A stretch of 64,000 nt of DNA, from assembly GCF_000949255.1 (NCBI RefSeq), contig NZ_JXUW01000004.1, forward strand, positions 1 through 64,000, written 5' to 3'. The position numbers and the translations under genes were made by a program. The notes under the pieces are model-generated. The model was not told the DNA's origin. It did not search any database and was given only the letters and a program-made list of their open reading frames with translations. Each line of letters opens with the position of its first letter. Position 1 is the first letter of the stretch. The DNA comes from Ferrimicrobium acidiphilum DSM 19497. Its GTDB lineage: Bacteria > Actinomycetota > Acidimicrobiia > Acidimicrobiales > Acidimicrobiaceae. Below, piece by piece: positions 15,617-35,134 of the stretch.

Positions 15617-15650
15617 AAAAAGACCCCCTGATCAAAGATCAAGAGGGTCT
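15617..15650 (-). terminator. leuA attenuator terminator hairpin
   Basis: On the minus strand AGACCCTCTTGATC, a TTT loop and GATCAGGGGGTCT form a strong stem directly followed by TTTTTA. This is an intrinsic terminator placed 114 bases before leuA and only one base after hairpin 15651-15677, so it would stop transcription of leuA unless relieved. Confidence 0.85.
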
Positions 15651-15677
15651 AGGGCGATCACCGTCGGTGATCGCCCT
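15651..15677 (-). promoter_or_regulatory. leuA leader hairpin (12-bp perfect stem)
   Basis: AGGGCGATCACC and GGTGATCGCCCT pair perfectly around a 3-base loop. The 5' arm overlaps the last two bases of the stop codon of the leucine leader peptide, so a ribosome finishing the peptide would block it while one stalled at the Leu codons would not. It abuts, but does not share a strand with, the terminator stem. Confidence 0.75.
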
Positions 15678-15714
15678 ATGTAAGAAGAAGTCCTGCAGTC
15701 GTCAGAATACTCAT
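15676..15714 (-). CDS. Leucine-rich leader peptide of leuA
   Basis: ATG at 15714 encodes MSILTTAGLLLT and stops at TAG. Four of twelve codons are leucine, three of them consecutive CTT codons near the end, which is the arrangement of amino-acid-sensing leader peptides. It begins 12 bases after the serA stop codon. No good Shine-Dalgarno is visible, so translation may be coupled to serA termination or start on a short or leaderless transcript. Two hairpins follow at once (15651-15677 and terminator 15617-15650) before leuA. Confidence 0.8.
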   Translation of the reverse strand: MSILTTAGLLLT

Positions 15715-15726
15715 GTTGGCTAGAAC

Positions 15727-17310
15727 TTAATCGACATCCGGAGTAGATCCGACCGACTTTGCATAAATGATCCCTGCATTGCTCTCCAACACCTGGATGA
15801 CTTCGGTGGAAACAGGACGTGAGACGCTGAGCAACATCAATGCGGTACCATCATCAACTCGTGGAGAGACGGCCATAGAGTCGATGGAGTATCCTCCGTC
15901 GCCCAGAACCTTGCCCACCACTCCGATCATGCCAGGCTGATCAAAATTGCGAACCGCGAGCATCGACGCCGAAGGCGGAACCTCAACCCAGTGCCCGTCG
16001 ACAAGCACGATTCTCGGCTCTGCACCCGTAGCTCCCGCAAGTGTCCCGCCCACAACATGCTCTGGGGTGCGTAGGATCACTAGGTTGCGAAAGTTAAGAC
16101 TATTTGCGACGGTGGTCTCTCGAATCTCCAATCCACGCTCAGTGGCGAGTTGGGGTGCGTTCACATAGGAGACCGGCTCGTTGAGACCGACAGAGAAGAT
16201 GCCCTTCAAGACCGAAAGCGTTAGCAGCCGAGTATCTTCATGAGCGAGCTCACCTTGATACTCGATCTCGAGCGATGCTGGTAGGCCGCCGGTTAGCGAA
16301 GAGATAAATTGTCCGAGAAACTCTACCAACCCGAGGTATGGACGGACCTGCGGAGAGGCCTCAGCCGCATTGACGTTCACGGCAAACGGAACGAACTCGT
16401 TGGCCAGCGCGAGTTGCACCTGTTCAGCGATGGTTATACCAGCCTTATTCTGTGCCTCCTCAGTACTCGCACCCAGGTGCGGAGTGACGACCACAGAATC
16501 GAGCGTCAGCAAAGGCGATCCAGTTGGTGGCTCAGTTTCAAACACGTCGAGTGCGGCGCCAGCCACTGTTCCTTCGACAATCGCCGCGTAAAGAGCATCC
16601 TCGTCGATTATGCCACCCCTCGCAGCATTCACGAACCGGATTCCGGGCTTCACCTGCGCGAGCAACTCCTTCCCAATAAGTCCTTTGGTTTCTTTAGACT
16701 TCGGGAGATGAATCGTAACGAAATCTGCGGACCCGACAAGCTCCGCCAACGAGGTGAGCTCGACACCCATTTTCTTGGCTCGCTCTTGAGAGATGTAAGG
16801 ATCGTACGCAATAAGGGTCATGCCAAAGGCGAGAGCTCGCTGTGCTACAAGTGCTCCAATCCTCCCAAGGCCAACAATGCCTAGGGTCTTGCCGTATAGC
16901 TCCACACCTTCAAACTTGGATCGCGCCCATGTGCCTGATGTTAGGCTCGCATGTGCCTGCGGAATCTGTCGAGACAGCGACAGCAACAGGGCCATAGTGT
17001 GTTCGGCTGCTGAGATGATATTGGACTGAGGTGCGTTGACCACCATGACGCCTGCCTTTGTGGCAGCCTCCACATCAACGTTGTCGAGGCCAATGCCAGC
17101 CCGGCCTACAACGATAAGGTGAGGTGCATTGGCGATCACCTCGGCAGTCACCTTGGTCGCCGAGCGAATGATGATCGCATGAACATCCTGCACAGCTTGC
17201 AAGAGCTCCTCCGGGGATAGATCGAGAGATACACGCACCTCATGTCCTGCCCCTCGAAGGATATCAAGCCCTCGGTCTGCTATAACCTCGCTCACCAAGA
17301 TGGTAGCCAC
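15727..17310 (-). CDS. serA: D-3-phosphoglycerate dehydrogenase
   Basis: A 527-residue NAD enzyme oxidising 3-phosphoglycerate, the first step of serine synthesis. The start was set at GTG 17310 (V-ATILVSEVIADRGLDIL) because AGGGAG lies 5 bases upstream and the length then equals the actinobacterial long form. Visible parts: catalytic-domain start, GRAGIGLDNVDVEAATKAGV, the NAD motif TLGIVGLGRIGALVAQRALAF, RGGIIDEDALYAAIVEGTVA, and the Glu/His pair with PHLGASTEEAQ. The rear half has the intervening (ASB) domain and a C-terminal ACT domain (LAVRNFDQPGMIGVVGKVLG) for serine feedback. It is followed directly by the leuA leader peptide, and aspC is upstream on the same strand. Confidence 0.95.
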   Translation of the reverse strand: MATILVSEVIADRGLDILRGAGHEVRVSLDLSPEELLQAVQDVHAIIIRSATKVTAEVIANAPHLIVVGRAGIGLDNVDVEAATKAGVMVVNAPQSNIISAAEHTMALLLSLSRQIPQAHASLTSGTWARSKFEGVELYGKTLGIVGLGRIGALVAQRALAFGMTLIAYDPYISQERAKKMGVELTSLAELVGSADFVTIHLPKSKETKGLIGKELLAQVKPGIRFVNAARGGIIDEDALYAAIVEGTVAGAALDVFETEPPTGSPLLTLDSVVVTPHLGASTEEAQNKAGITIAEQVQLALANEFVPFAVNVNAAEASPQVRPYLGLVEFLGQFISSLTGGLPASLEIEYQGELAHEDTRLLTLSVLKGIFSVGLNEPVSYVNAPQLATERGLEIRETTVANSLNFRNLVILRTPEHVVGGTLAGATGAEPRIVLVDGHWVEVPPSASMLAVRNFDQPGMIGVVGKVLGDGGYSIDSMAVSPRVDDGTALMLLSVSRPVSTEVIQVLESNAGIIYAKSVGSTPDVD

Positions 17311-22753: not shown

Positions 22754-23773
22754 ATGACACATCGCATCGCCGTTATTGGGGGCGACGGTATCGGACCAGA
22801 GGTCACCAAAGAGGCGATAAAGGTAGCTCGCGCTGCCGGTGCCAGCTTAGAGACCCAAGATTTTCAACTCGGTGCTGCCCATTACGAACGTACCGCCGAG
22901 GTGCTCAAAGACGAGACCCTCGCGGAACTCATGAGCTTCGATGCCATTTTACTCGGAGCTATAGGCCCAGCAATTGGTTCAACCACAGTCCCGTCTGGCA
23001 TTCTCGAACGAGGCCTGCTCCTCAAGCTCCGTTTTGCTCTTGATCTTTACATCAATCAACGCCCGTTTCTGACACTCGATCCAACACTGACCACTACACA
23101 CAAACCAGTCGATATGATCGTAATTCGAGAGAACACCGAAGGGGCCTATGTAGGAGAGGGTGGCCTCCTGCGCAAAGGGACTCCCTACGAGGTGGCGACG
23201 CAGGGATCGGTGAATACTCGCAACGGCGTCGAACGAGCAATTCGCTTTGCCTTCGATCTTGCCCAATCCAGAGAACGCAAACTACTAACGCTGGTACACA
23301 AAACCAATGTTCTCACCTACTCCGGTGATCTTTGGTATCGCACTTTTCTAGAGGTTGCCTCTGAATATCCAGCCGTCATAACGAGCTACAACCACGTCGA
23401 CGCCGCCTGTATCTACCTCGTCGAGGCTCCCGAGCGCTACGACGTCATCGTCACTGACAACTTATTCGGGGACATTATCACTGATCTGGCTGCCGCCGTC
23501 TCCCAGGGTATCGGCTATGCCGCCTCAGCCAACATCAACCCAGAACGCACCGGACCATCTCTCTTCGAACCGGTTCACGGAGCTGCTCATGACCGTGTTG
23601 GCACTGGCGAGGCCAACCCTTATGCGGCCATCCGTTCAGCCGCAATGATGCTCGACTTCCTTGGTGACACAGCAATCGCAGCAAAAATTGAACACGCATT
23701 GGCAGTCCTGCCTCCGGCAGGGGCAACCACCACTGAAATTGGTGACTTCTATGTAGAAAGGGTGACACACTGA
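22754..23773 (+). CDS. leuB: 3-isopropylmalate dehydrogenase
   Basis: A 339-residue NAD-dependent oxidative decarboxylase giving 2-oxoisocaproate (leucine) and able to act on citramalate-derived 3-methylmalate (isoleucine). Motifs: IAVIGGDGIGPEVTKEAIKV, IVIRENTEGAYVGEGG, TRNGVERAIRFAFDLAQSRE, LTLVHKTNVLTYSGDLWY (catalytic Lys region) and VTDNLFGDIITDLAAAVSQG (metal Asp residues). The C-terminal cofactor loop is EPVHGAAHDRVGTGEANPYA. It follows a 230-base gap and starts an operon with ilvE and cimA; its stop overlaps the ilvE start as TGATG. ATG 22754 has GAGGAGA upstream. Confidence 0.94.
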   Translation: MTHRIAVIGGDGIGPEVTKEAIKVARAAGASLETQDFQLGAAHYERTAEVLKDETLAELMSFDAILLGAIGPAIGSTTVPSGILERGLLLKLRFALDLYINQRPFLTLDPTLTTTHKPVDMIVIRENTEGAYVGEGGLLRKGTPYEVATQGSVNTRNGVERAIRFAFDLAQSRERKLLTLVHKTNVLTYSGDLWYRTFLEVASEYPAVITSYNHVDAACIYLVEAPERYDVIVTDNLFGDIITDLAAAVSQGIGYAASANINPERTGPSLFEPVHGAAHDRVGTGEANPYAAIRSAAMMLDFLGDTAIAAKIEHALAVLPPAGATTTEIGDFYVERVTH

Positions 23774-24699
23774 TGCCGATACAAGCAATGAAATACGTCT
23801 GGATGAATGGCAGACAGGTTCCAGACGAGGACGCCAAGGTTCACGTTCTTACGCATGCGCTCCACTATGGTTACGGAGTCTTCGAAGGCATCCGCGCCTA
23901 CGACACTCCACGTGGCTCTGCCGTCTTTCGTCTGACCGATCACATCAACCGCTTCTACGAGTCCGCCAAGATTCTCATGCTGGATATCCCGTACGCGCCT
24001 TCGGAGCTCATAGAAGCGACCAAACGACTTGTTGAGGTTAACGGACAAGCCTCGTGCTATATCCGGCCTATCGCCTACCTTGGTTATGGCGAGATGGGGC
24101 TCAACCCACTCACCGGGTCCACGGACGTCGCGATCGCAAACTGGCCATGGGGTGCCTACCTTGGTGACGAAGGACTGTCAAAAGGAATTCGAGCTAAGAT
24201 CTCTTCCTTCAAACGCCACGACCCCAACATTATCCCACCCGCTGCAAAGACTACTGGTGGATACATAAACTCGGCGCTTGCCAAAGCAGAGGCGATTAAG
24301 GCCGGCTATGACGAGGCGATTATGCTCTCCGGTCAAGGGTTCGTAAGTGAGTGTACGGGCGAGAACATCTTCATAGTCAAAGATAACGTCCTCCTTACCC
24401 CTTCGGATGCATCTGGAGCCTTATCGGGAATCACCCGAAAGACTATCGCTCAGGTCGCAAGTGACATGGGTATCGAGACTCGCTACACCCAGTTGCTACG
24501 GACAGACCTCTACCTTGCTGATGAGATGTTTATCACCGGTACCGCCGCCGAGGTGGTTCCTGTGAGTTCGGTCGACGATCGAGCAATCGGCAGTGGTGAG
24601 CCCGGCAAGATCTCCAAGGAGCTCCAGCGTCGCTACTTCCAAATCGTCACCGGCAATGAGCCCTCCTATGACCATTGGCTCGAATACGTGAAGGACTGA
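23773..24699 (+). CDS. ilvE: Branched-chain amino acid aminotransferase
   Basis: A 308-residue fold-type IV PLP enzyme making the final transamination to Leu, Ile and Val. It shows MKYVWMNGRQVPDEDAKVHV, HALHYGYGVFEGIRAYDT, RLTDHINRFYESAKIL, SCYIRPIAYLGYGEMG and PPAAKTTGGYINSALAKAEA, with the PLP Lys expected in the AK of AALAK/INSALAKAEA region of the family. It also has VSECTGENIFIVKDNVLLTP and FITGTAAEVVPVSSVDDRAI. It is translationally coupled to leuB and followed within five bases by the CTG-initiated cimA. The C-terminus ends VTGNEPSYDHWLEYV, as usual for the I-type enzymes. Confidence 0.94.
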   Translation: MPIQAMKYVWMNGRQVPDEDAKVHVLTHALHYGYGVFEGIRAYDTPRGSAVFRLTDHINRFYESAKILMLDIPYAPSELIEATKRLVEVNGQASCYIRPIAYLGYGEMGLNPLTGSTDVAIANWPWGAYLGDEGLSKGIRAKISSFKRHDPNIIPPAAKTTGGYINSALAKAEAIKAGYDEAIMLSGQGFVSECTGENIFIVKDNVLLTPSDASGALSGITRKTIAQVASDMGIETRYTQLLRTDLYLADEMFITGTAAEVVPVSSVDDRAIGSGEPGKISKELQRRYFQIVTGNEPSYDHWLEYVKD

Positions 24700-24703
24700 C
24701 ACT

Positions 24704-26284
24704 CTGCGAACGGTTGACATCTACGATACGACCCTAAGAGATGGGTCTCAGCAAGAGGGGATCTCGCTCACAGTCGAGGATAAGCTTCGCGTCGCCCGCC
24801 AGCTCGACAGCTTAGGGGTGCAGTTCATCGAGGGTGGCTGGCCAGGTGCCAATCCAAAGGATGCTGCATTCTTTGCGAGAGCGACCAGTGAACTTAAGCT
24901 TCATAGCTCCAGGCTGGTAGCGTTTGGATCCACACGCAGGGCCAACGGAGATGTCGAGAACGACCCGAACCTGCGGGCTCTGGTAGCGAGTGGTGTAGCC
25001 GATGTTTGCATCGTAGCAAAGGCCTGGGACTATCACGTAGTCCATGCCCTTCGAACCTCGCTAGAGGAGGCACTGGCGATGGTCCGAGACTCCGTAGCCT
25101 TTCTTGTCGGCCACGGGTGCAATGTATTCCTTGACGCTGAGCACTTCTTCGACGGCTTCAAGGGCAACCCGGACTTCGCCATCGCAGTACTCAGTGCTGC
25201 AGCAGAGGGCGGAGCATCTACCCTCGTCCTCTGTGACACCAACGGAGGAACTCTCCCGTCAGAGATCCCGTCTATCATCTCCAAGGTCAACGACCAAATT
25301 GCACTTCCGTTCGGGGTTCACTTTCACAACGACTCTGGCTGCGCAGTGGCGAACTCGCTCATCGCCGTAGATCTGGGTGCCACCCAAGTCCAAGGGTGCC
25401 TCAATGGCTATGGAGAGAGGACCGGCAATGCAAATCTGGTGCCCATCATTGCGGCCCTCTCGCTCAAACAGGCGATCTCCACCATTCCCCCACAGAATCT
25501 TCAACTCCTCACCACTACGGCACGCCATATTGCAGAGATCACCAACCTGCCCCTCTCCCCACAGACCCCCTATGTCGGATCCTCAGCCTTCACCCACAAG
25601 GCAGGACTGCACGTAAGTGCCATCGCGAGGCGTAGCGACGCCTACGAGCATATCAACCCTGACCTGGTCGGGAACCATAGCCGCTTCGTGGTATCGGAGA
25701 TGGCTGGACGCCAAACGCTCCTGATAAAGGCTGGTGAACTCGGTCTTGAGCTGACCGATGATGCCACAACATCATTGCTGCAGCGACTCAAGGACCTTGA
25801 GCACCAGGGGTACCACTTCGAGGTAGCCGATGGATCGCTTGAGCTGCTTATGCGTCATGCGCTTGGTTGGGTGCAGCCGTACTTCGAGGTCGAGTCGTAC
25901 CGCGTCGCCACCGATGGTTACCATGGTCCAGAGCTCCTAACCGAGGCGACCGTGAAGGTGAGGGTCAACGACAACCGAATTATCGCCACCGCCGAGGGAA
26001 ACGGACCCGTACACGCGCTAGATCAGGCACTCAGGCAGGCACTCCAGACGACCTACCCATCGCTAAAGACGATGGGGCTCGATGACTACAAGGTCCGGGT
26101 ACTCGACACCTCAAGTGGCACCGACGCCGTAGTGAGGGTTCTCATCGACTTCTCCGACTCCGAGACCCAATGGACAACCACCGGAGTCTCGACAAATATC
26201 ATCGAGGCATCGTTCTCGGCGCTCACCGAGGGCTTTGTGCTCGCACTTGTCAAGACAACATCCAGCGAAGGGAGTGCGCAATGA
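24704..26284 (+). CDS. cimA: Citramalate synthase (LeuA-like), probable CTG start
   Basis: A 526-residue acyltransferase expected to join pyruvate and acetyl-CoA into (R)-citramalate, entering isoleucine synthesis without threonine. The N-terminal block VDIYDTTLRDGSQQEGISLT starts at about 24713 and is essential, yet no ATG, GTG or TTG precedes it in frame after the stop at 24689. The only fitting initiator is CTG at 24704, which has AAGGA 8 bases upstream and gives M-R-T-V, the usual family start. Other motifs: FIEGGWPGANPKDAAFF, GVHFHNDSGCAVANSLIAVD (HxH), GYGERTGNANLVPIIAALSL and HKAGLHVSAI. A C-terminal regulatory domain ends WTTTGVSTNIIEAS. It lies between ilvE and a coupled hypothetical gene. 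An alternative is a related 2-isopropylmalate-synthase-like function. Confidence 0.88.
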   Translation: MRTVDIYDTTLRDGSQQEGISLTVEDKLRVARQLDSLGVQFIEGGWPGANPKDAAFFARATSELKLHSSRLVAFGSTRRANGDVENDPNLRALVASGVADVCIVAKAWDYHVVHALRTSLEEALAMVRDSVAFLVGHGCNVFLDAEHFFDGFKGNPDFAIAVLSAAAEGGASTLVLCDTNGGTLPSEIPSIISKVNDQIALPFGVHFHNDSGCAVANSLIAVDLGATQVQGCLNGYGERTGNANLVPIIAALSLKQAISTIPPQNLQLLTTTARHIAEITNLPLSPQTPYVGSSAFTHKAGLHVSAIARRSDAYEHINPDLVGNHSRFVVSEMAGRQTLLIKAGELGLELTDDATTSLLQRLKDLEHQGYHFEVADGSLELLMRHALGWVQPYFEVESYRVATDGYHGPELLTEATVKVRVNDNRIIATAEGNGPVHALDQALRQALQTTYPSLKTMGLDDYKVRVLDTSSGTDAVVRVLIDFSDSETQWTTTGVSTNIIEASFSALTEGFVLALVKTTSSEGSAQ

Positions 26285-28091: not shown

Positions 28092-28703
28092 TTAATCTTG
28101 CGTCAACCTCATATCCAAGCGGCGTGATTGACGGCTGAGAGCCTGACCCAGCTCAGAATCGGAGAGAAAGACGATCGCGACGCCCGCATCGAGAGCCTGT
28201 CTCATTCGCTCAACCACTCCAGTCGAGGCCCGATAGGGTATCGGCGGCGCCACCACCCACACCGGTAGCAATCGAACTAACATCATGGCCAATGAGAGCT
28301 GGAATCGCCCATCTGCGTCCAGACTTGCTGCCGCTTCGTTAGCCGAGGAGAGCAGCCCTACCTCATCCAGGACCTCTCGAAAGGACGGTACCCTCCCGAG
28401 CCTAGGAGGACCTATCCTTACCGCCAACGCGAGATGTTCGAGCACCTTGAGCGACGGCATCGGTGTAAAACCTGCAAACGCTAGCGCTAATACTGAACGC
28501 GCCTCCCGGCTCCCGGCTTTAGCGCCCAACACCGTAATCTGTGCACTCGACTCGAGGCCGAGGAAGGCGCGAACGACAAGGTCCTGTGATCCACCGGTCA
28601 GCAACATCGATTCACCTTCGGCAAGGCTCCAGGTCCCGAGACGGACCGAGGCACCCTCGCGGGACACCGATCCACGCACCTCAAGTACCGTTCTAGGAGT
28701 CAC
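28092..28703 (-). CDS. Degenerate ABC-type ATP-binding protein without Walker motifs
   Basis: A 203-residue protein with the shape of an ABC ATPase but lost active-site motifs. The fold order is visible: beta-strand LTGGSQDLVVRAFLGLES stands where Walker A GxxGxGKS/T should be. LALAFAGFTPMPSLKVLEHL matches the Q-loop/helical region. FQLSLAMMLVRLLPVWVV stands where LSGGQ and Walker B should be, but with no GGQ and APPIP instead of DEP. It therefore probably does not hydrolyse ATP. It starts inside the end of the membrane gene (28693-29943), so the two are co-translated and may form a transporter-like or regulatory pair. Family assignment is by pattern only. Confidence 0.6.
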   Translation of the reverse strand: MTPRTVLEVRGSVSREGASVRLGTWSLAEGESMLLTGGSQDLVVRAFLGLESSAQITVLGAKAGSREARSVLALAFAGFTPMPSLKVLEHLALAVRIGPPRLGRVPSFREVLDEVGLLSSANEAAASLDADGRFQLSLAMMLVRLLPVWVVAPPIPYRASTGVVERMRQALDAGVAIVFLSDSELGQALSRQSRRLDMRLTQD

Positions 28704-29943
28704 GGATCTCTCCTTGCCACCAGCTAGTCAACGAGATACCGACTACACCCATGATGACCGAGAAGCTCGTTCCCGTGATCACATACTCGAGAAACAGGCC
28801 GTGAACAGCAAATGCATTGTTCAGCTGGACTAGCGGTGCTAGTGCACAACCAGCAAACGCGACCGCGAGCACCCCACTTACCCAGCGTGATTGAACAATC
28901 TCCTGATCAGATGCCATCACCCGAAGAGCGACACCGGCGCCTACAAATCCGACTCCGCAACCCAAAGCTAATACCAGCACAGTACCAAAACCAATGAGAT
29001 AACTCTGCCGCCACGCCAAGCCAACAGCCGTCACGAGCAACAGACTTGCAAGCAAAGCAGGCGCCACGGCGGCACGACGACCATAGGATCCCCGAGTTCG
29101 CGGAAGGATGCCGAGAATCCCGGTCGGCTGCACCAGCGACGAGGCGACTGGACTCAGCTCCCAACCCAGCCAGCAACCTAGCCCAGCTACCAGGGGGCCA
29201 AGAACCAACATGCCCTCGGAAAGGCCTATACCTAATGGAACGAGCGCCAACGCAGCTAGGACAGCCCTTAACCACGTCAGTCGACCGACGCGAGCTGTAC
29301 TCAAGGCACCCAAGGATAGCCCTGGGTACCTCAACATCAACGAAAGGCTGAGGGAGTGATCGAGAAAACGACCGTCTGGCGCTGCGGATCGGCGAAGATT
29401 AGGCGCCCAGCGCGAGCCAACAAGAACTAACACGGAGGCCAAGAGAGCAATCGCCGAGTACGTCACAGCGTCCTTACCTCGGACCAGGTCAGCCGCTGTG
29501 TTCTGGAGACCGAGTGATGCCCCGCTAGCCAAGATCGCAACCGACACAAGTACAAAGACCGCGAGCACAAGATCTGCTAGTCCACTGACCCTAGACCATT
29601 GGTGGCACCCCTCCATCCAAATGGCGAGTGCACATCCAACCAGCAACCACGGGGCCGCACTCTGATGGAGGAGGCCCTGATGACTGAGCGAATACCAAAC
29701 CACTAGCGCGTATACAACAGTCATGCCCGCTACCAGACCCGCGAAAAGTCGGCCCCATCGCGCCCCTAGACTCACAGCACCAGCCGCGAGAAAAACAGCC
29801 AACAGACCACCGCCGAGCGCGGAACTCGGCAACGAGTGTACGACCTTATCTAGATCACGATCGAGCACGGCAACCAGAGCCCCCAGACTCAGCGCCCCCC
29901 ATAGCACCGGTTTACGCCAGGTACGCAGGGTGGAAGCGATCAC
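28693..29943 (-). CDS. Polytopic membrane protein of unknown function
   Basis: A 416-residue protein with about eleven to twelve hydrophobic spans (for example LWGALSLGALVAVL, FAGLVAGMTVVYALVVWYSL, LLLVTAVGLAW near the middle of the last third) and few soluble loops; the longest is near residues 180-210 (LRRSAAPDGRFLDHSLSLSL). No known permease signature was recognised. It begins one base after the ilvC stop codon and overlaps the degenerate ABC gene by 11 bases, so it seems to be the fifth gene of the ilv transcription unit. It could be an amino-acid exporter subunit, but the sequence itself does not show this. Confidence 0.7.
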   Translation of the reverse strand: MIASTLRTWRKPVLWGALSLGALVAVLDRDLDKVVHSLPSSALGGGLLAVFLAAGAVSLGARWGRLFAGLVAGMTVVYALVVWYSLSHQGLLHQSAAPWLLVGCALAIWMEGCHQWSRVSGLADLVLAVFVLVSVAILASGASLGLQNTAADLVRGKDAVTYSAIALLASVLVLVGSRWAPNLRRSAAPDGRFLDHSLSLSLMLRYPGLSLGALSTARVGRLTWLRAVLAALALVPLGIGLSEGMLVLGPLVAGLGCWLGWELSPVASSLVQPTGILGILPRTRGSYGRRAAVAPALLASLLLVTAVGLAWRQSYLIGFGTVLVLALGCGVGFVGAGVALRVMASDQEIVQSRWVSGVLAVAFAGCALAPLVQLNNAFAVHGLFLEYVITGTSFSVIMGVVGISLTSWWQGEIRDS

Positions 29944-29944
29944 G

Positions 29945-30967
29945 CTATCCCCCAGACACCTCGGTCAGTTTTGACTTCGTAGACAGGAACGGCATCATTG
30001 TACGCAGAGTCGCCCCCACCTGCTCGACTGATTGATCTTTGGCCTGTTGGCGTAGTTGATTAAATCGAGGTCGACCGGCTGCCATCTCATCGATTAACTC
30101 TCGCGCGAAGCTTCCATCCTGAATCTCAGCTAGAATACGCCGCATCTCTGCGCGTGTAGCCTCATTGACTATACGTGGCCCGCGTGTAAGGCCCCCGTAC
30201 TCAGCCGTCTCTGAGACCGAGAACCACATGCCCGCTAGACCATTTTCGTAAAGGAGGTCAACGATGAGTTTCATCTCGTGCAGGCACTCAAAATAGGCCG
30301 ACTCCGGCTGGTAACCAGCCTCTACCAGGGTCGTGAAGCCAGCGACAATCAGCTCACTCAAGCCACCGCAGAGCACCACCTGCTCGCCAAAGAGATCGGT
30401 CTCAGTCTCCTCAGCAAAGGTGGTATCAAGCACGCCAGCCTTCGTGGAGCCGATACCCCAGGCGTAAGAGAGCGCCAATGCATGACCGTTTCCTTGAGGG
30501 TCGTTGGCGACGGCCACCAACGAAGGCACGCCTCCGCCCTCTTCGTAAGTCCTCCGAACGAGATGGCCAGGACCTTTAGGCGCGATCATGATCACCGCAA
30601 CGTCCTCTGGCGGCACGATCTCACCGAATCGAATATTGAAGCCATGAGCGAACCCAAGCGTCTGGCCAGGACGAAGGTGTGGGGCTACCTCGTTCTCATA
30701 GATCTCCTTCTGCACGGTGTCGGGCGCGAGAAACATGATGAGATCCGCCCACTTGACAGCTTCCGGCACTGACAACACCTCGAGCCCACTAGCCCAAGCC
30801 TTATCACCAGAGGAGGAGCCTGGTCGAAGCGCAACTCGCACCTTAACCCCTGAGTCAGAGAGGTTGAGTGCATGAGCGTGGCCTTGGGAACCGTAACCAA
30901 TGATAGCGACACGCGTGCCGCTGATAATCGACGGATCTGCGTCGTTGTCGTAATACATCTGAGCCAT
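29945..30967 (-). CDS. ilvC: Ketol-acid reductoisomerase (class I)
   Basis: A 340-residue NADPH- and Mg-dependent enzyme turning acetolactate or acetohydroxybutyrate into dihydroxy acids. The Rossmann motif is [20 protein letters not shown]. Catalytic-domain motifs are [40 protein letters not shown] (metal-binding Asp/Glu) and [20 protein letters not shown]. The length matches the short class I form. It is third after ilvB and ilvN and followed directly by a membrane gene. NADPH is the family default; the loop between the second strand and helix ([12 protein letters not shown]) carries the usual Arg/Ser pattern. Confidence 0.96.
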
Positions 30968-31543
30968 TTATGATACTCTTCCCTTCTTAGATCTGCGTGT
31001 GGGTTTTGGCAGCTTACTGAGAGCAATCCTACCGGTTCGCTGTAGCTCGATCAGACCAAACTCAGCAAGGAACGCCTCTACATCATCTAGCTTCTCGGGT
31101 GACAACGCAAAGACGACTGTAAGTCTGTCCATCGAAACGTCGATAATCTCACCATGAAAGATCTCGACTAGCTCCATCACCTTGGAACGAGCACCAACCT
31201 CAGCGTTGATAGTGGCGAGCATGCACTCGTACTCGAGCGCGTCAGCCGGGTCGATCTCGGTGATCTTGATAACGTTGATCAACTTATGCAGCTGCTTGGT
31301 TATCTGTTCTAGTGGAACCGTCTCCACATCAACAACTATGGTGAGCCTCGAAAATCGCTCGTCATCGGTTGGAGCCACCGCGAGAGAATAGATGTTGTAC
31401 CCACGTCGAGAGAACAACAACGCCACTCTTGCAAGCACACCGGCACGGTTCTCGACTAGCACGCTCAGGATATGATGCCTACCCTCAACCGGCGGACGAA
31501 TAGAGCCAATTGGGACAAGGTTCGAAGATCGATCAACCATCAT
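30968..31543 (-). CDS. ilvN: Acetolactate synthase regulatory subunit
   Basis: A 191-residue small subunit that activates IlvB and gives valine feedback. The N-terminal ACT domain is clear: HILSVLVENRAGVLARVALLF followed by SRRGYNIYSLAVAPTDDERFS. The second domain reads VMELVEIFHGEIIDVSMDRL. The start codons ATG ATG overlap the ilvB stop (TGATG), so translation is coupled. The C-terminus is unusually basic (PKPTRRSKKGR). ilvC follows with no gap. Confidence 0.94.
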   Translation of the reverse strand: MMVDRSSNLVPIGSIRPPVEGRHHILSVLVENRAGVLARVALLFSRRGYNIYSLAVAPTDDERFSRLTIVVDVETVPLEQITKQLHKLINVIKITEIDPADALEYECMLATINAEVGARSKVMELVEIFHGEIIDVSMDRLTVVFALSPEKLDDVEAFLAEFGLIELQRTGRIALSKLPKPTRRSKKGRVS

Positions 31544-33246
31544 CGTCCTCTCTGCTGATGCGGAGGCAACACGATGTCATCATTCGGTGCTCCGGCGGGT
31601 ACCATCGGAAAGACCTTTTCAAAGGTGTCAACACGAAAGTCAATCACAACCGGTCGATCGTCAATCTGATTCGCCTTCTCGATAACTGGGTCCACCTCAC
31701 TCACCTGATCGACACGAAAACCAACGGCACCCATCGCCTCGGCCCACTTCACATAGTCTGGAAGATCGGGCGAGAGGAACACCTCCGAATAACGCTCCTC
31801 GTAAAACATCTCTTGCCACTGGCGCACCATACCAAGATAACCGTTATTCAAGATAGCAACTTTGATAGGGATACGTTCTGCCGTCGCGGTCACCAGCTCC
31901 TGCGCAGTCATCTGGAAGCACCCATCGCCATCAATGGCCCAGACCGTACTTTGCGGGCGACCAGTCTTTGCTCCAATAGCAGCTGGCACCGCAAAGCCCA
32001 TCGTCCCAAGACCCCCTGAGTTAATCCACGAGTTTGGTCGTTCGAATTTAAAGTATTGAGAAGCCCACATCTGGTGCTGCCCCACACCCGAGACCACCAC
32101 CGTATCGGCTGGCGCCAGAGCTGAGATGCGTTCGACGACATACTGAGGCTTTATGGCTGCACCCGGAAGTGAGGGTTCGTACGAGTACGGGTACTGCTCT
32201 TTCCAGGCACGCAACTGGGCGATCCACTCCGATAGATCGGGTGCCTCAGCTGGGAGGTGCCGAGTGATCTCAGGGATCACCGACTTCACATCACCAACGA
32301 TAGGAACATCAGGCCGACGCACCTTCCCAAGTTCGGCTGGGTCGATATCGACATGTATGATGCGCGCCTTGGCGGCAAAGGCATCGACCTTGCCGGTCAC
32401 GCGATCATCGAAGCGACTGCCGAGTGCAATAACCAGATCTGCCTGCTGAAGCGAGGTCACGGCAGTGAAGTTACCATGCATTCCTGGCATCCCTAGACAC
32501 AGTGGGTGCGAGTCTGCGATGACGCCTCTCGCCATTAGAGTTGTCACCACCGGGATGCCAGAGCGATCCACTAACGCCTGTAACTCCGCGGATGCGTTAC
32601 CTCTAATCAGCCCACCGCCGGCATAGATCACAGGCCTCTTCGAGCTCGCGATCATCGCCGCCGCCTGCTCTATCATCTTCGCGTGCCCCTTGACCGTTGG
32701 TTGATAGCCTGGCAGATCCAGCCGGCGAGGCCAGTACCACTCCATGGTGTCATTGGCAACGTCCTTAGGGAGGTCAACAACGACGGGTCCCGGCCGACCG
32801 GTGGTGGCAACGTGAAAGGCCTCGGCTATCACCCTTGGTATGTCACTTGCCCGTGTGATAAGCCAATTGTGTTTGGTGACCGACATCGTGATGCCTGTGG
32901 TGTCGGTCTCTTGAAACGCATCAGTTCCTATCGAGGTCGTAGCGACCTGACCGGTGATCACCACGATAGGTATGGAGTCAACGTAGGCGTCTGCAACCGC
33001 AGTTACGATATTAGTGGCCGCAGGACCACTAGTCACGATGGCAACTCCCGGACGTCCTGTGGCCTGCGCGAAGCCTTCGGCTGCATGGCCAGCACCCTGT
33101 TCATGGCGCACAAGGATGTGGCGGATTGGTGACTCCAACAACGGGTCATAGACGGGGAGAATGGCTCCGCCTGGAAGGCCAAACACCGTCTCGACCCCCT
33201 GCATCTCAAGCGACTTTATCAGTGCTTGTGCTCCGGTTAACTTCAT
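31540..33246 (-). CDS. ilvB: Acetolactate synthase large subunit
   Basis: A 568-residue TPP/FAD enzyme making acetolactate (Val, Leu) and acetohydroxybutyrate (Ile). Start ATG 33246 (MKLTGAQALIKSLEMQGVET) follows GGAGG at 6 bases, in preference to the upstream in-frame start at 33273. Motifs: VFGLPGGAILPVYDPL, LVRHEQGAGHAAEGFAQATG with the catalytic Glu, PGVAIVTSGPAATNIVTAVA, GSRFDDRVTGKVDAFAAKAR and the TPP-Mg motif AIDGDGCFQMTAQELVTATA ... NNGYLGMVRQWQ. It is preceded by an Ile/Leu/Val leader peptide and terminator after ilvD. Confidence 0.96.
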   Translation of the reverse strand: MKLTGAQALIKSLEMQGVETVFGLPGGAILPVYDPLLESPIRHILVRHEQGAGHAAEGFAQATGRPGVAIVTSGPAATNIVTAVADAYVDSIPIVVITGQVATTSIGTDAFQETDTTGITMSVTKHNWLITRASDIPRVIAEAFHVATTGRPGPVVVDLPKDVANDTMEWYWPRRLDLPGYQPTVKGHAKMIEQAAAMIASSKRPVIYAGGGLIRGNASAELQALVDRSGIPVVTTLMARGVIADSHPLCLGMPGMHGNFTAVTSLQQADLVIALGSRFDDRVTGKVDAFAAKARIIHVDIDPAELGKVRRPDVPIVGDVKSVIPEITRHLPAEAPDLSEWIAQLRAWKEQYPYSYEPSLPGAAIKPQYVVERISALAPADTVVVSGVGQHQMWASQYFKFERPNSWINSGGLGTMGFAVPAAIGAKTGRPQSTVWAIDGDGCFQMTAQELVTATAERIPIKVAILNNGYLGMVRQWQEMFYEERYSEVFLSPDLPDYVKWAEAMGAVGFRVDQVSEVDPVIEKANQIDDRPVVIDFRVDTFEKVFPMVPAGAPNDDIVLPPHQQRGR

Positions 33247-33328: not shown

Positions 33329-33355
33329 AAAAGACCTCCCGGTAGGGGAGGTCTT
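33329..33355 (-). terminator. ilvB attenuator terminator hairpin
   Basis: On the minus strand AGACCTCCCC, a short loop and GGGAGGTCT form a roughly 9-bp GC-rich stem followed by TTTTCG. It lies about 80 bases before the ilvB start and immediately after hairpin 33356-33383, within the ilvD-ilvB gap. Confidence 0.85.
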
Positions 33356-33383
33356 GGGCACGACGCTACGAGGAGCCGTGCCC
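33356..33383 (-). promoter_or_regulatory. ilvB leader hairpin
   Basis: GGGCACG and CGTGCCC pair, with an inner GCT/AGC extension and loop CCTCGT. The 5' arm touches the last base of the leader peptide stop codon, so a ribosome at the stop would cover it. It directly abuts the terminator stem without sharing bases, as at leuA. Confidence 0.7.
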
Positions 33384-33433
33384 TAACGAAGGAGTACTAC
33401 CAACGAGCGTCGAATGATCATGTGAAGAAGCAT
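33383..33433 (-). CDS. Ile/Leu/Val-rich leader peptide of ilvB
   Basis: ATG at 33433 encodes MLLHMIIRRSLVVLLR and stops at TAG. Nine of sixteen residues are Leu, Ile or Val, in runs LL, II, LVVLL, so translation speed would report all three branched-chain amino acids. GAGG lies 7 bases upstream. The peptide starts 15 bases after the ilvD stop codon and is followed by two adjacent hairpins, the second with a U-tail, before ilvB. This matches multivalent ilv attenuation known in enterics and corynebacteria, but placed inside an operon. Confidence 0.88.
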   Translation of the reverse strand: MLLHMIIRRSLVVLLR

Positions 33434-33448
33434 ACCCAACCTCATCGA

Positions 33449-35134
33449 CTATCCGCCAGTTACTGCCCCAATTTCTGCTCCCTTTACCAAAAGCGCGTAC
33501 TTGCCGAGCGCTCCTTCGGTATAGCGGGCGGGCGCAGGAACGAAAGACTGGCGTCGACGAGCAAGTTCAGCCTCGTCAACCAGAAGGTCGATAGCGTGAG
33601 TAGGCACATCGATAACGATCCTATCGCCGTCTCGGATAAGACCAATCGGTCCCGCATCTGCCGCCTCTGGTGCTACATGGCCGATACAGAATCCGTGAGT
33701 GCCGCCGGAGAAGCGTCCGTCGGTGATCAACGCAGCATCATGCCCACGACCCGCACCCTTCATCGCGCCAGTAACCGCCAGCATCTCTCGCATACCAGGG
33801 CCGCCCTTTGGCCCCTCATATCGAATCACTACAACGTCGCCGGCACGAATCTGACCTGCAAATATTGCGTCAAGTGCCGCCTCTTCGCGATCGAATACTC
33901 GGGCGATGCCGTCAAAGTGTTCCTGATCGAGCCCGGCCACCTTCACAACCGATCCAGATGGAGCAAGAGATCCGCGCAGGACTGCAATCCCACCAACCTC
34001 ATGGATCGGGGTATCGATGTTATGCACTACCTCACCATCTGGACGGGGTGGATCATAGACCCGGAGCTCCTCGGCTAGAGTGCGGCCAGTTACGGTGAGG
34101 CAATCGCCATTCAACAGACCAGCGTCCAAGAGCTCAGCAAGTACCACCGGGATGCCACCGATGCGATCGAGATCAGTCATATGATATTTTCCGTGCGGCT
34201 TCGTGTCGGCGAGGTGAGGAACTCGACTACCAATCCGGTTGAAGTCATCCAGAGTGAGTTCAACCTTCGCCTCGTAGGCGATGGCCAGCAGATGGAGCAC
34301 TGCATTCGTAGAGCCCCCAAGGGCCATCACGACGGCTATCGCGTTTTCGAACGCAGCTTTGGTCATGATCTGACGAGGAGTAATTCCCAACTCCAAGAGC
34401 CTCATCACCGAACGTCCAGCCTCAAAGGCGATATCCTCGCGTCGACGGTCGACGGCTGGCGCAGAGGCAGAGCCGACCTGGGCCATTCCCAATGCCTCAG
34501 CAACCGAGGCCATCGTATTGGCGGTGTACATGCCTGCACACGATCCCTTGGTTGGACATGCATTGCGTTCAACGTCGAGAAGTCGTTGGTCGTCGATGCT
34601 GCCGGTCGCATAAGCCCCGACCGCCTCAAAGACACTTACAAGGTCAAGGGTCTCGCCACGAAAACGCCCCGGCAATATGCTACCGCCATAGACAAAAACC
34701 GATGGTAAATCGAGGCGCGCCGCCGCCATCATCATTCCTGGTAGCGATTTGTCACAACCCGCCAGTGTCACCATCGCATCAAAGCGCTCGGCGTGCATCA
34801 TCAACTCTACCGAATCGGCGATGACCTCACGGGAGACGAGTGATGAATGCATGCCCTCATGCCCCATGGAGATACCGTCCGAGACGGCAATGGTGCCGAA
34901 CTCCAACGCCACACCGCCAGCGGCCCGTACACCCGCCTTCGCGCGCTGCGCCAGGTCGGAGAGCACGAGGTTGCAGGGCGTAACCTCGTTCCACGAAGAT
35001 GCGATCCCAATCTGTGGCTTGGAAAAATCCTCATCATTGAGACCAACCGCTCGGAGCATCGCTCGCGCCGGGGCTCGCCTCGGCCCCTCCGTGACCTCCT
35101 GGCTCCGAATCCTGATTGACTTCGTCTCGCTCAT
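33449..35134 (-). CDS. ilvD: Dihydroxy-acid dehydratase
   Basis: A 561-residue Fe-S enzyme converting dihydroxy acids to 2-oxo acids, the third common step for Val and Ile. Motifs: [20 protein letters not shown] (Cys), [20 protein letters not shown] (cluster Cys and catalytic Asp-Lys), [20 protein letters not shown] (third Cys), [20 protein letters not shown] and [14 protein letters not shown]. Ends with a short [12 protein letters not shown] tail. Start ATG 35134 has AGGGGG upstream. It is first in an ilvD-[leader/terminator]-ilvB-ilvN-ilvC unit, so it would be expressed even when attenuation stops ilvBNC. Confidence 0.95.

Follow-up and report, generated by a model that had tools for sequence, protein, structure and literature searches.

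The ilvBNC genes of Ferrimicrobium acidiphilum DSM 19497 are very probably controlled by a ribosome-mediated transcription attenuator, whose leader peptide MIIRRSLVVLLR is predicted to be leaderless and to be expressed from its own promoter overlapping the end of ilvD. The site lies in a window of 64,000 nucleotides, the whole stretch of DNA that we analysed, and occurs once in the genome. Four genes with NCBIfam equivalog matches define the locus, all on the minus strand: ilvD, encoding dihydroxy-acid dehydratase (33449..35134; TIGR00110 / NF002068, above cut-off), which is the upstream neighbour; ilvB, encoding the large subunit of acetolactate synthase (31540..33246; NF005860, TIGR00118), which is the first gene controlled; ilvN, encoding the small subunit (30968..31543; TIGR00119); and ilvC, encoding ketol-acid reductoisomerase (29945..30967; TIGR00465). 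Between the end of ilvD at 33449 and the ilvB ATG at 33246 is a gap of 202 nt, and it contains the leader ORF, a first hairpin (H1) and an intrinsic terminator, all on the same minus strand. Immediately 3' of ilvC, we also observe a hydrophobic ORF of 416 amino acids (28693-29943, minus strand) that is without an NCBIfam match and that could be a member of the attenuated unit.

A first-pass annotation of this DNA had placed a 16-residue leader rich in Ile, Leu and Val between ilvD and ilvB, preceded by a GAGG ribosome site. The short ORF is indeed present: MLLHMIIRRSLVVLLR runs from ATG 33433 to the stop codon TAG at 33385-33383, in a frame that is open back to ATG 33445. Its proposed start and ribosome site do not survive comparison within the genus, for which we used a gap-free alignment of seven species. 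ATG 33433 sits within TATGCT (33429..33434, minus strand), which is 98% conserved while its flanks drift and which we predict to be the -10 box of an ilvBNC promoter. The seven bases after this hexamer, in the codons for MLLH, are 61% conserved, and the region of the GAGG is 67% conserved compared with 98% for TATGCT. The span ATGATC...TAG, which encodes MIIRRSLVVLLR (33383..33421, minus strand), is 94% conserved in the same species, is enriched in Ile, Leu and Val, and carries the control codons TTG GTA GTA CTC CTT. No Shine-Dalgarno sequence is conserved before this leader in the seven congeners.

The position of the predicted promoter is informative for the start of the transcript. TATGCT is spaced 7 nt from ATG 33421, and this geometry recurs widely. 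Among 111 ilvB loci from relatives, with the leader start taken as the nearest ATG or GTG that yields at least 10 residues, a hexamer with A2 and T6 precedes the leader start by 6-9 nt in 100, against 6-23 of 111 at other distances, and TTG peaks 33-36 nt upstream of the start. A pattern common among the relatives is TTGCCA-N17-CACACT-N8-ATG; in this genus, the -35 position coincides with the last ilvD codons and the match is poor. Because the -10 spacing and the TTG at -35 distance fit a promoter whose transcript begins at the start codon, we predict that MIIRRSLVVLLR is a leaderless leader. To judge by sequence, the ilvBNC transcript would open with the start codon of the leader, which would be translated with no ribosome site, and most likely a promoter overlapping the end of ilvD produces a separate ilvBNC transcript that begins near ATG 33421. 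The leaders also have an unusual codon preference: GTA makes up 199 of the 292 Val codons (68%) in ilvB leaders versus 12.7% in a reference set of only ten genes from the window.

Downstream of the leader, the GC-rich hairpin and U-tailed terminator that had been read ahead of ilvB were both recovered by folding. H1 (33356..33383, minus strand) is GC-rich, and its 5' end coincides with the final base of the stop codon. Next comes the terminator, AAGACCTCCC-CTACC-GGGAGGTCTT plus a U-tract (33329..33355, minus strand), with its stem at 33355-33331 and a U-tract that continues to 33329. The 211-nt stretch as a whole folds with z = -3.6 relative to shuffles. Covariation in relatives had been suggested as a check on the two hairpins, and both covary in 20 diverse sequences with the structure set by hand: 6 of 8 pairs in H1 and 3 of 9 pairs in the terminator (97% of cells paired) are changed on both sides. 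Taken jointly, 9 of 17 pairs are changed on both sides with 96% of cells paired, a result as high as which was found in 0 of 500 shuffles. When 81 loci were aligned with MAFFT, RNAalifold returned the terminator alone, since the loops of H1 differ in length and sequence across loci, which is why the hand-set structure was used. A simple terminator scan reported nothing at 33355-33329, probably because the stem is prolonged through A/U pairs and too few T residues are then counted.

The element is widespread among related bacteria. Relatives with whole genomes, together with 80 GTDB records, supplied the ilvB loci, which gave 126 distinct upstream regions. Leader, H1 and terminator are present upstream of ilvB in 111 of these (81 non-redundant), and the leader, on whose conservation the first-pass annotation had staked the attenuator, is kept in frame in these 111 loci. 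Over the last seven codons ahead of the stop, Ile, Leu and Val account for 69% of residues in frame versus 10% and 4% in the other two frames, the first figure being biased upward because the stop was selected partly on Ile/Leu/Val content. The conservation within the genus and the evidence from sister copies given below are independent of that choice. A covariance model built from the aligned ilvB loci (R1) finds one copy in this genome, before ilvB, and hits 73 of the 296 Actinomycetota genomes and 124 of the 159 Acidimicrobiia genomes searched. Three regions found with R1 or by protein guidance (L166, L186 and L216) had no recognisable gene for branched-chain amino acids (BCAA) and were excluded as probable false matches. 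Of the Rfam families searched against this DNA (ilvB-OMG, Leu_leader, Phe_leader and others), only tRNAs reach gathering scores; the best weak match is Phe_leader, with 21.2 of 55 bits and E 0.24.

Some individual loci depart from the common picture. The element is absent from locus L081. Upstream of ilvB in a member of the same family (L094), a terminator with the arms GACCTCCC/GGGAGGTC is retained between ilvD and ilvB, no Ile/Leu/Val leader is recognisable there, and this terminator is possibly a decayed attenuator. One genome outside the class has two R1 copies (L168:1687-1968 and L188:2807-3079) with the BCAA leaders TLVLIT and SVLLIT. Both copies are close to a small conserved ORF (MKIEIYNGEHVGTAEWQ...), of which the one tested is without an NCBIfam match, and an ilvB sequence is also near the L168 copy.

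The genomic context bears directly on whether the attenuator sits within an ilvD-ilvBNC operon, as had been claimed. On such a reading, a single ilvD-ilvBNC transcript contains an internal attenuator, and the leader is MLLHMIIRRSLVVLLR, or a longer form from ATG 33445, translated with the help of the GAGG site after the ilvD stop. The ORF and the GAGG are present where they were placed, 59 of the 126 loci have ilvD immediately upstream, there is no terminator between ilvD and the leader, and both kinds of transcript could coexist. We nevertheless consider this arrangement unlikely, given that the GAGG and the MLLH codons are unconserved in congeners, that the ATG is part of the conserved TATGCT, and that the element stands without an adjoining ilvD in many relatives. 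Moreover, the start geometry in 100 of 111 loci suits a leaderless transcript and indicates that ilvBNC is transcribed separately. The attenuator would head the ilvBNC transcript and does not have to lie within an ilvD operon; many loci carry it with no ilvD alongside. It was also stated that ilvD would be expressed regardless of the attenuator; this may be so, but as a separate transcription unit. If ilvD transcripts do enter the element, the leader would go untranslated and the terminator would end them.

What was claimed of the element itself, a branched-chain leader-peptide attenuator before ilvBNC, is borne out by the Leu and Val (plus Ile) codons and the two covarying hairpins, and the copies of the element elsewhere address what it senses. 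We examined 56 R1 regions, mostly second copies that are not before ilvB along with some ilvB matches in families further removed. The downstream genes were named by comparison with NCBIfam-identified proteins. Leaders before cimA, which encodes citramalate synthase, end in runs of Ile (for example, ...VAIIIIR and ...STIIIIA), those before leuA end in runs of Leu (...GLLLR and ...TLLLLS), and those before leuB are mixtures of Val and Ile; in L177, cimA follows the leuB copy. Over the five positions that precede the final residue, Ile makes up 66% in the 17 cimA leaders versus 8% in 81 ilvB leaders (P = 2e-12), and Val 4% versus 47%. The second copies resemble the ilvB elements in their starts as well, since in 34 of 46 a -10-like hexamer precedes the start by 6-9 nt, compared with 3 of 46 at control distances. 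Since the codons of the leader change with the downstream pathway, the sensor would be the translating ribosome, and these changes are the best evidence for it.

A different possibility is that H1 is a structured regulatory RNA, either a riboswitch or a protein site, and that the short ORF is a minor feature, with regulation independent of leader translation. This would accommodate the fact that no antiterminator was found, as well as the report, in a study cited in PMC1262725, that the control codons of S. coelicolor ilvB can be exchanged without effect. We regard it as very unlikely in the present case: leader residues track the pathway (Ile with cimA, Leu with leuA) while the two-hairpin layout stays constant, the frame, the stop codon and the rare GTA codons are retained, and the H1 loops differ between loci in both length and sequence, as those of an aptamer would not. 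That the hairpins merely terminate ilvD in the usual way and the ORF is a product of chance is extremely improbable, and as a sole explanation it is refuted by the comparative data, for although intergenic terminators are common and read-through ilvD transcripts may end at this one, the leader is conserved in frame across a bacterial class, also where ilvD is not upstream, and the element is found again ahead of cimA, leuB and leuA, with codons that match.

The window holds a second attenuator, located before leuA, with the same layout as the one before ilvB. The leuA gene (15502-13967, minus strand; TIGR00973) has serA upstream of it. The element as a whole spans 15617-15729 on the minus strand and folds with z = -5.65. 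It consists of a -10-like TAAGTT (15729-15724) that overlaps the serA stop codon, a leaderless-looking leader peptide MSILTTAGLLLT (15676..15714) that includes LLL, a 13-bp hairpin (15678-15650) that takes in the stop codon, and a terminator (15649-15622) with a U-tract (15621-15617). A Leu-rich leader, a stop-codon hairpin and a terminator are found before leuA in 16 of 16 relatives, with LLL in 14 of them. This element was found by eye and had been missed by R1, so the R1 counts are lower bounds for genes other than ilvB. The window also contains a leuB-ilvE-cimA cluster (22754-26257, plus strand), before which we saw no attenuator element. In other Acidimicrobiia, leuB or cimA have such attenuators, with leaders of Val and Ile.

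We infer the transcription start, the termination and the starvation response of the ilvBNC attenuator as follows. RNA polymerase would start at the promoter overlapping the end of ilvD, giving a transcript with its 5' end at or near ATG 33421, and MIIRRSLVVLLR would be translated without a Shine-Dalgarno site. With ample charged Val, Leu and Ile tRNA, the ribosome would reach the stop codon and cover the 5' arm of H1, and with H1 blocked the terminator at 33355-33329 would end the transcript. Under limitation, a ribosome stalled on the Leu and Val codons, among them GTA GTA, which precede the stop by five and four codons, would allow H1 to form ahead of it, and polymerase would then read through into ilvBNC. 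The footprint of a ribosome extends about 12 nt past its A site. A stalled ribosome and one at the stop codon expose different RNA, with GTA four to five codons upstream and H1 on the stop codon; as the ribosome at the stop covers the 5' arm and the one stalled at GTA leaves the hairpin free, H1 would report stalling. As a guess, H1 may affect termination sterically or kinetically, as a hairpin that is a few nt from the base of the terminator.

The step from H1 to the terminator is where this element departs from the classical scheme. H1 and the terminator share no bases, and the predicted probability that the terminator forms has a mean of 0.96-0.98 whether the ribosome is stalled, at the stop codon or absent. 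In the folds, the 5' arm of the terminator has no alternative partner and is 12% paired when the 3' arm is removed. Neither folds, nor duplex tests against shuffles, nor boundary overlap revealed an antiterminator that excludes the terminator, and the duplex tests gave a strong signal for H1 and the terminator themselves only. Three candidate pairings were rejected. An H1 that runs into the base of the terminator, as proposed for C. glutamicum, scored at or below shuffled and swapped flanks. Pairing of the leader with the 3' arm of H1 (CGACGCU with AGCGUCG), seen by eye in the genus, was not significant over 81 loci. Pairing of the leader with the 3' arm of the terminator was weak, with a mean z of -0.39 in one of 11 tests, and is not relied on. 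Without an excluding antiterminator, a defining feature of the classical trp-type attenuator, the ilvB element would work like attenuation, though not demonstrably through the classical switch. The switch may be kinetic or steric; alternatively, our model lacks a tertiary contact or a factor. A broader proposal, which we put forward tentatively and think somewhat doubtful, is that leaderless attenuators across the class (before ilvB, leuA, cimA and leuB) use a stop-codon hairpin that reports the position of the ribosome to control a base-disjoint terminator. No base-pairing antiterminator would be involved, and closure of the terminator would perhaps be hindered sterically or kinetically.

In the enterobacterial attenuators of trp, leu, ilvGMEDA and E. 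coli ilvB, leaders have ribosome sites and a 2:3 antiterminator excludes the 3:4 terminator. The element described here shares with them control codons, a hairpin that depends on ribosome position, and a terminator; however, we found neither a ribosome site for the leader nor an excluding antiterminator. It belongs instead with the actinobacterial leader-peptide attenuators of ilvB known in Corynebacterium, Mycobacterium and Streptomyces, and its mechanism is not new. The leaderless attenuator of C. glutamicum ilvBNC has experimental support (PMC11857589), and its transcript starts one nt from the leader ATG (PMC11857589, PMC10272879). With that system and the ilvB-II motif (PMC11857589, PMC10272879), our element has in common a leaderless peptide (predicted here), Ile, Val and Leu codons including GUA, and hairpins and a terminator ahead of ilvBNC. 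In C. glutamicum the proposed antiterminator shares GCC with the base of the terminator, whereas here there is no such overlap beyond chance. The M. tuberculosis ilvB1NC leader (PMC13236596) is similar in its BCAA-rich uORF, its LVVI control codons (GUA), its terminator, and an "off" state with the ribosome on the stop codon. It differs in having a 166-nt leader with a predicted, mutually exclusive antiterminator and terminator, where our hairpins are independent, and wild-type and Ala-codon reporters exist for it (PMC13236596). Seliverstov et al. 2005 (PMC1262725) described ilvB leaders of Corynebacterium, Mycobacterium and Streptomyces with an ORF carrying runs of Ile, Val and Leu, a terminator and no clear antiterminator, as here. 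That study did not cover Acidimicrobiia and left the mode of ilvB regulation undecided, and its leuA element is the LEU pseudoknot, in contrast to the two-hairpin layout before leuA here. Among the open-access papers searched, we found none on ilvB attenuators in Acidimicrobiia or cimA attenuators in actinobacteria, which is weak evidence of absence.

Taken together, the main interest of these findings is in a class-wide family, in its codon swaps and in the missing antiterminator, and the idea of an intra-operon attenuator is probably wrong. The old puzzle of actinobacterial ilvB control is sharpened, as a stalled ribosome appears to control a terminator seemingly without an antiterminator. 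Attenuation of ilvB is extended to Acidimicrobiia, with the same layout before leuA, cimA and leuB, and the natural codon swap between these genes is good evidence, in advance of experiment, for the ribosome as the sensor.
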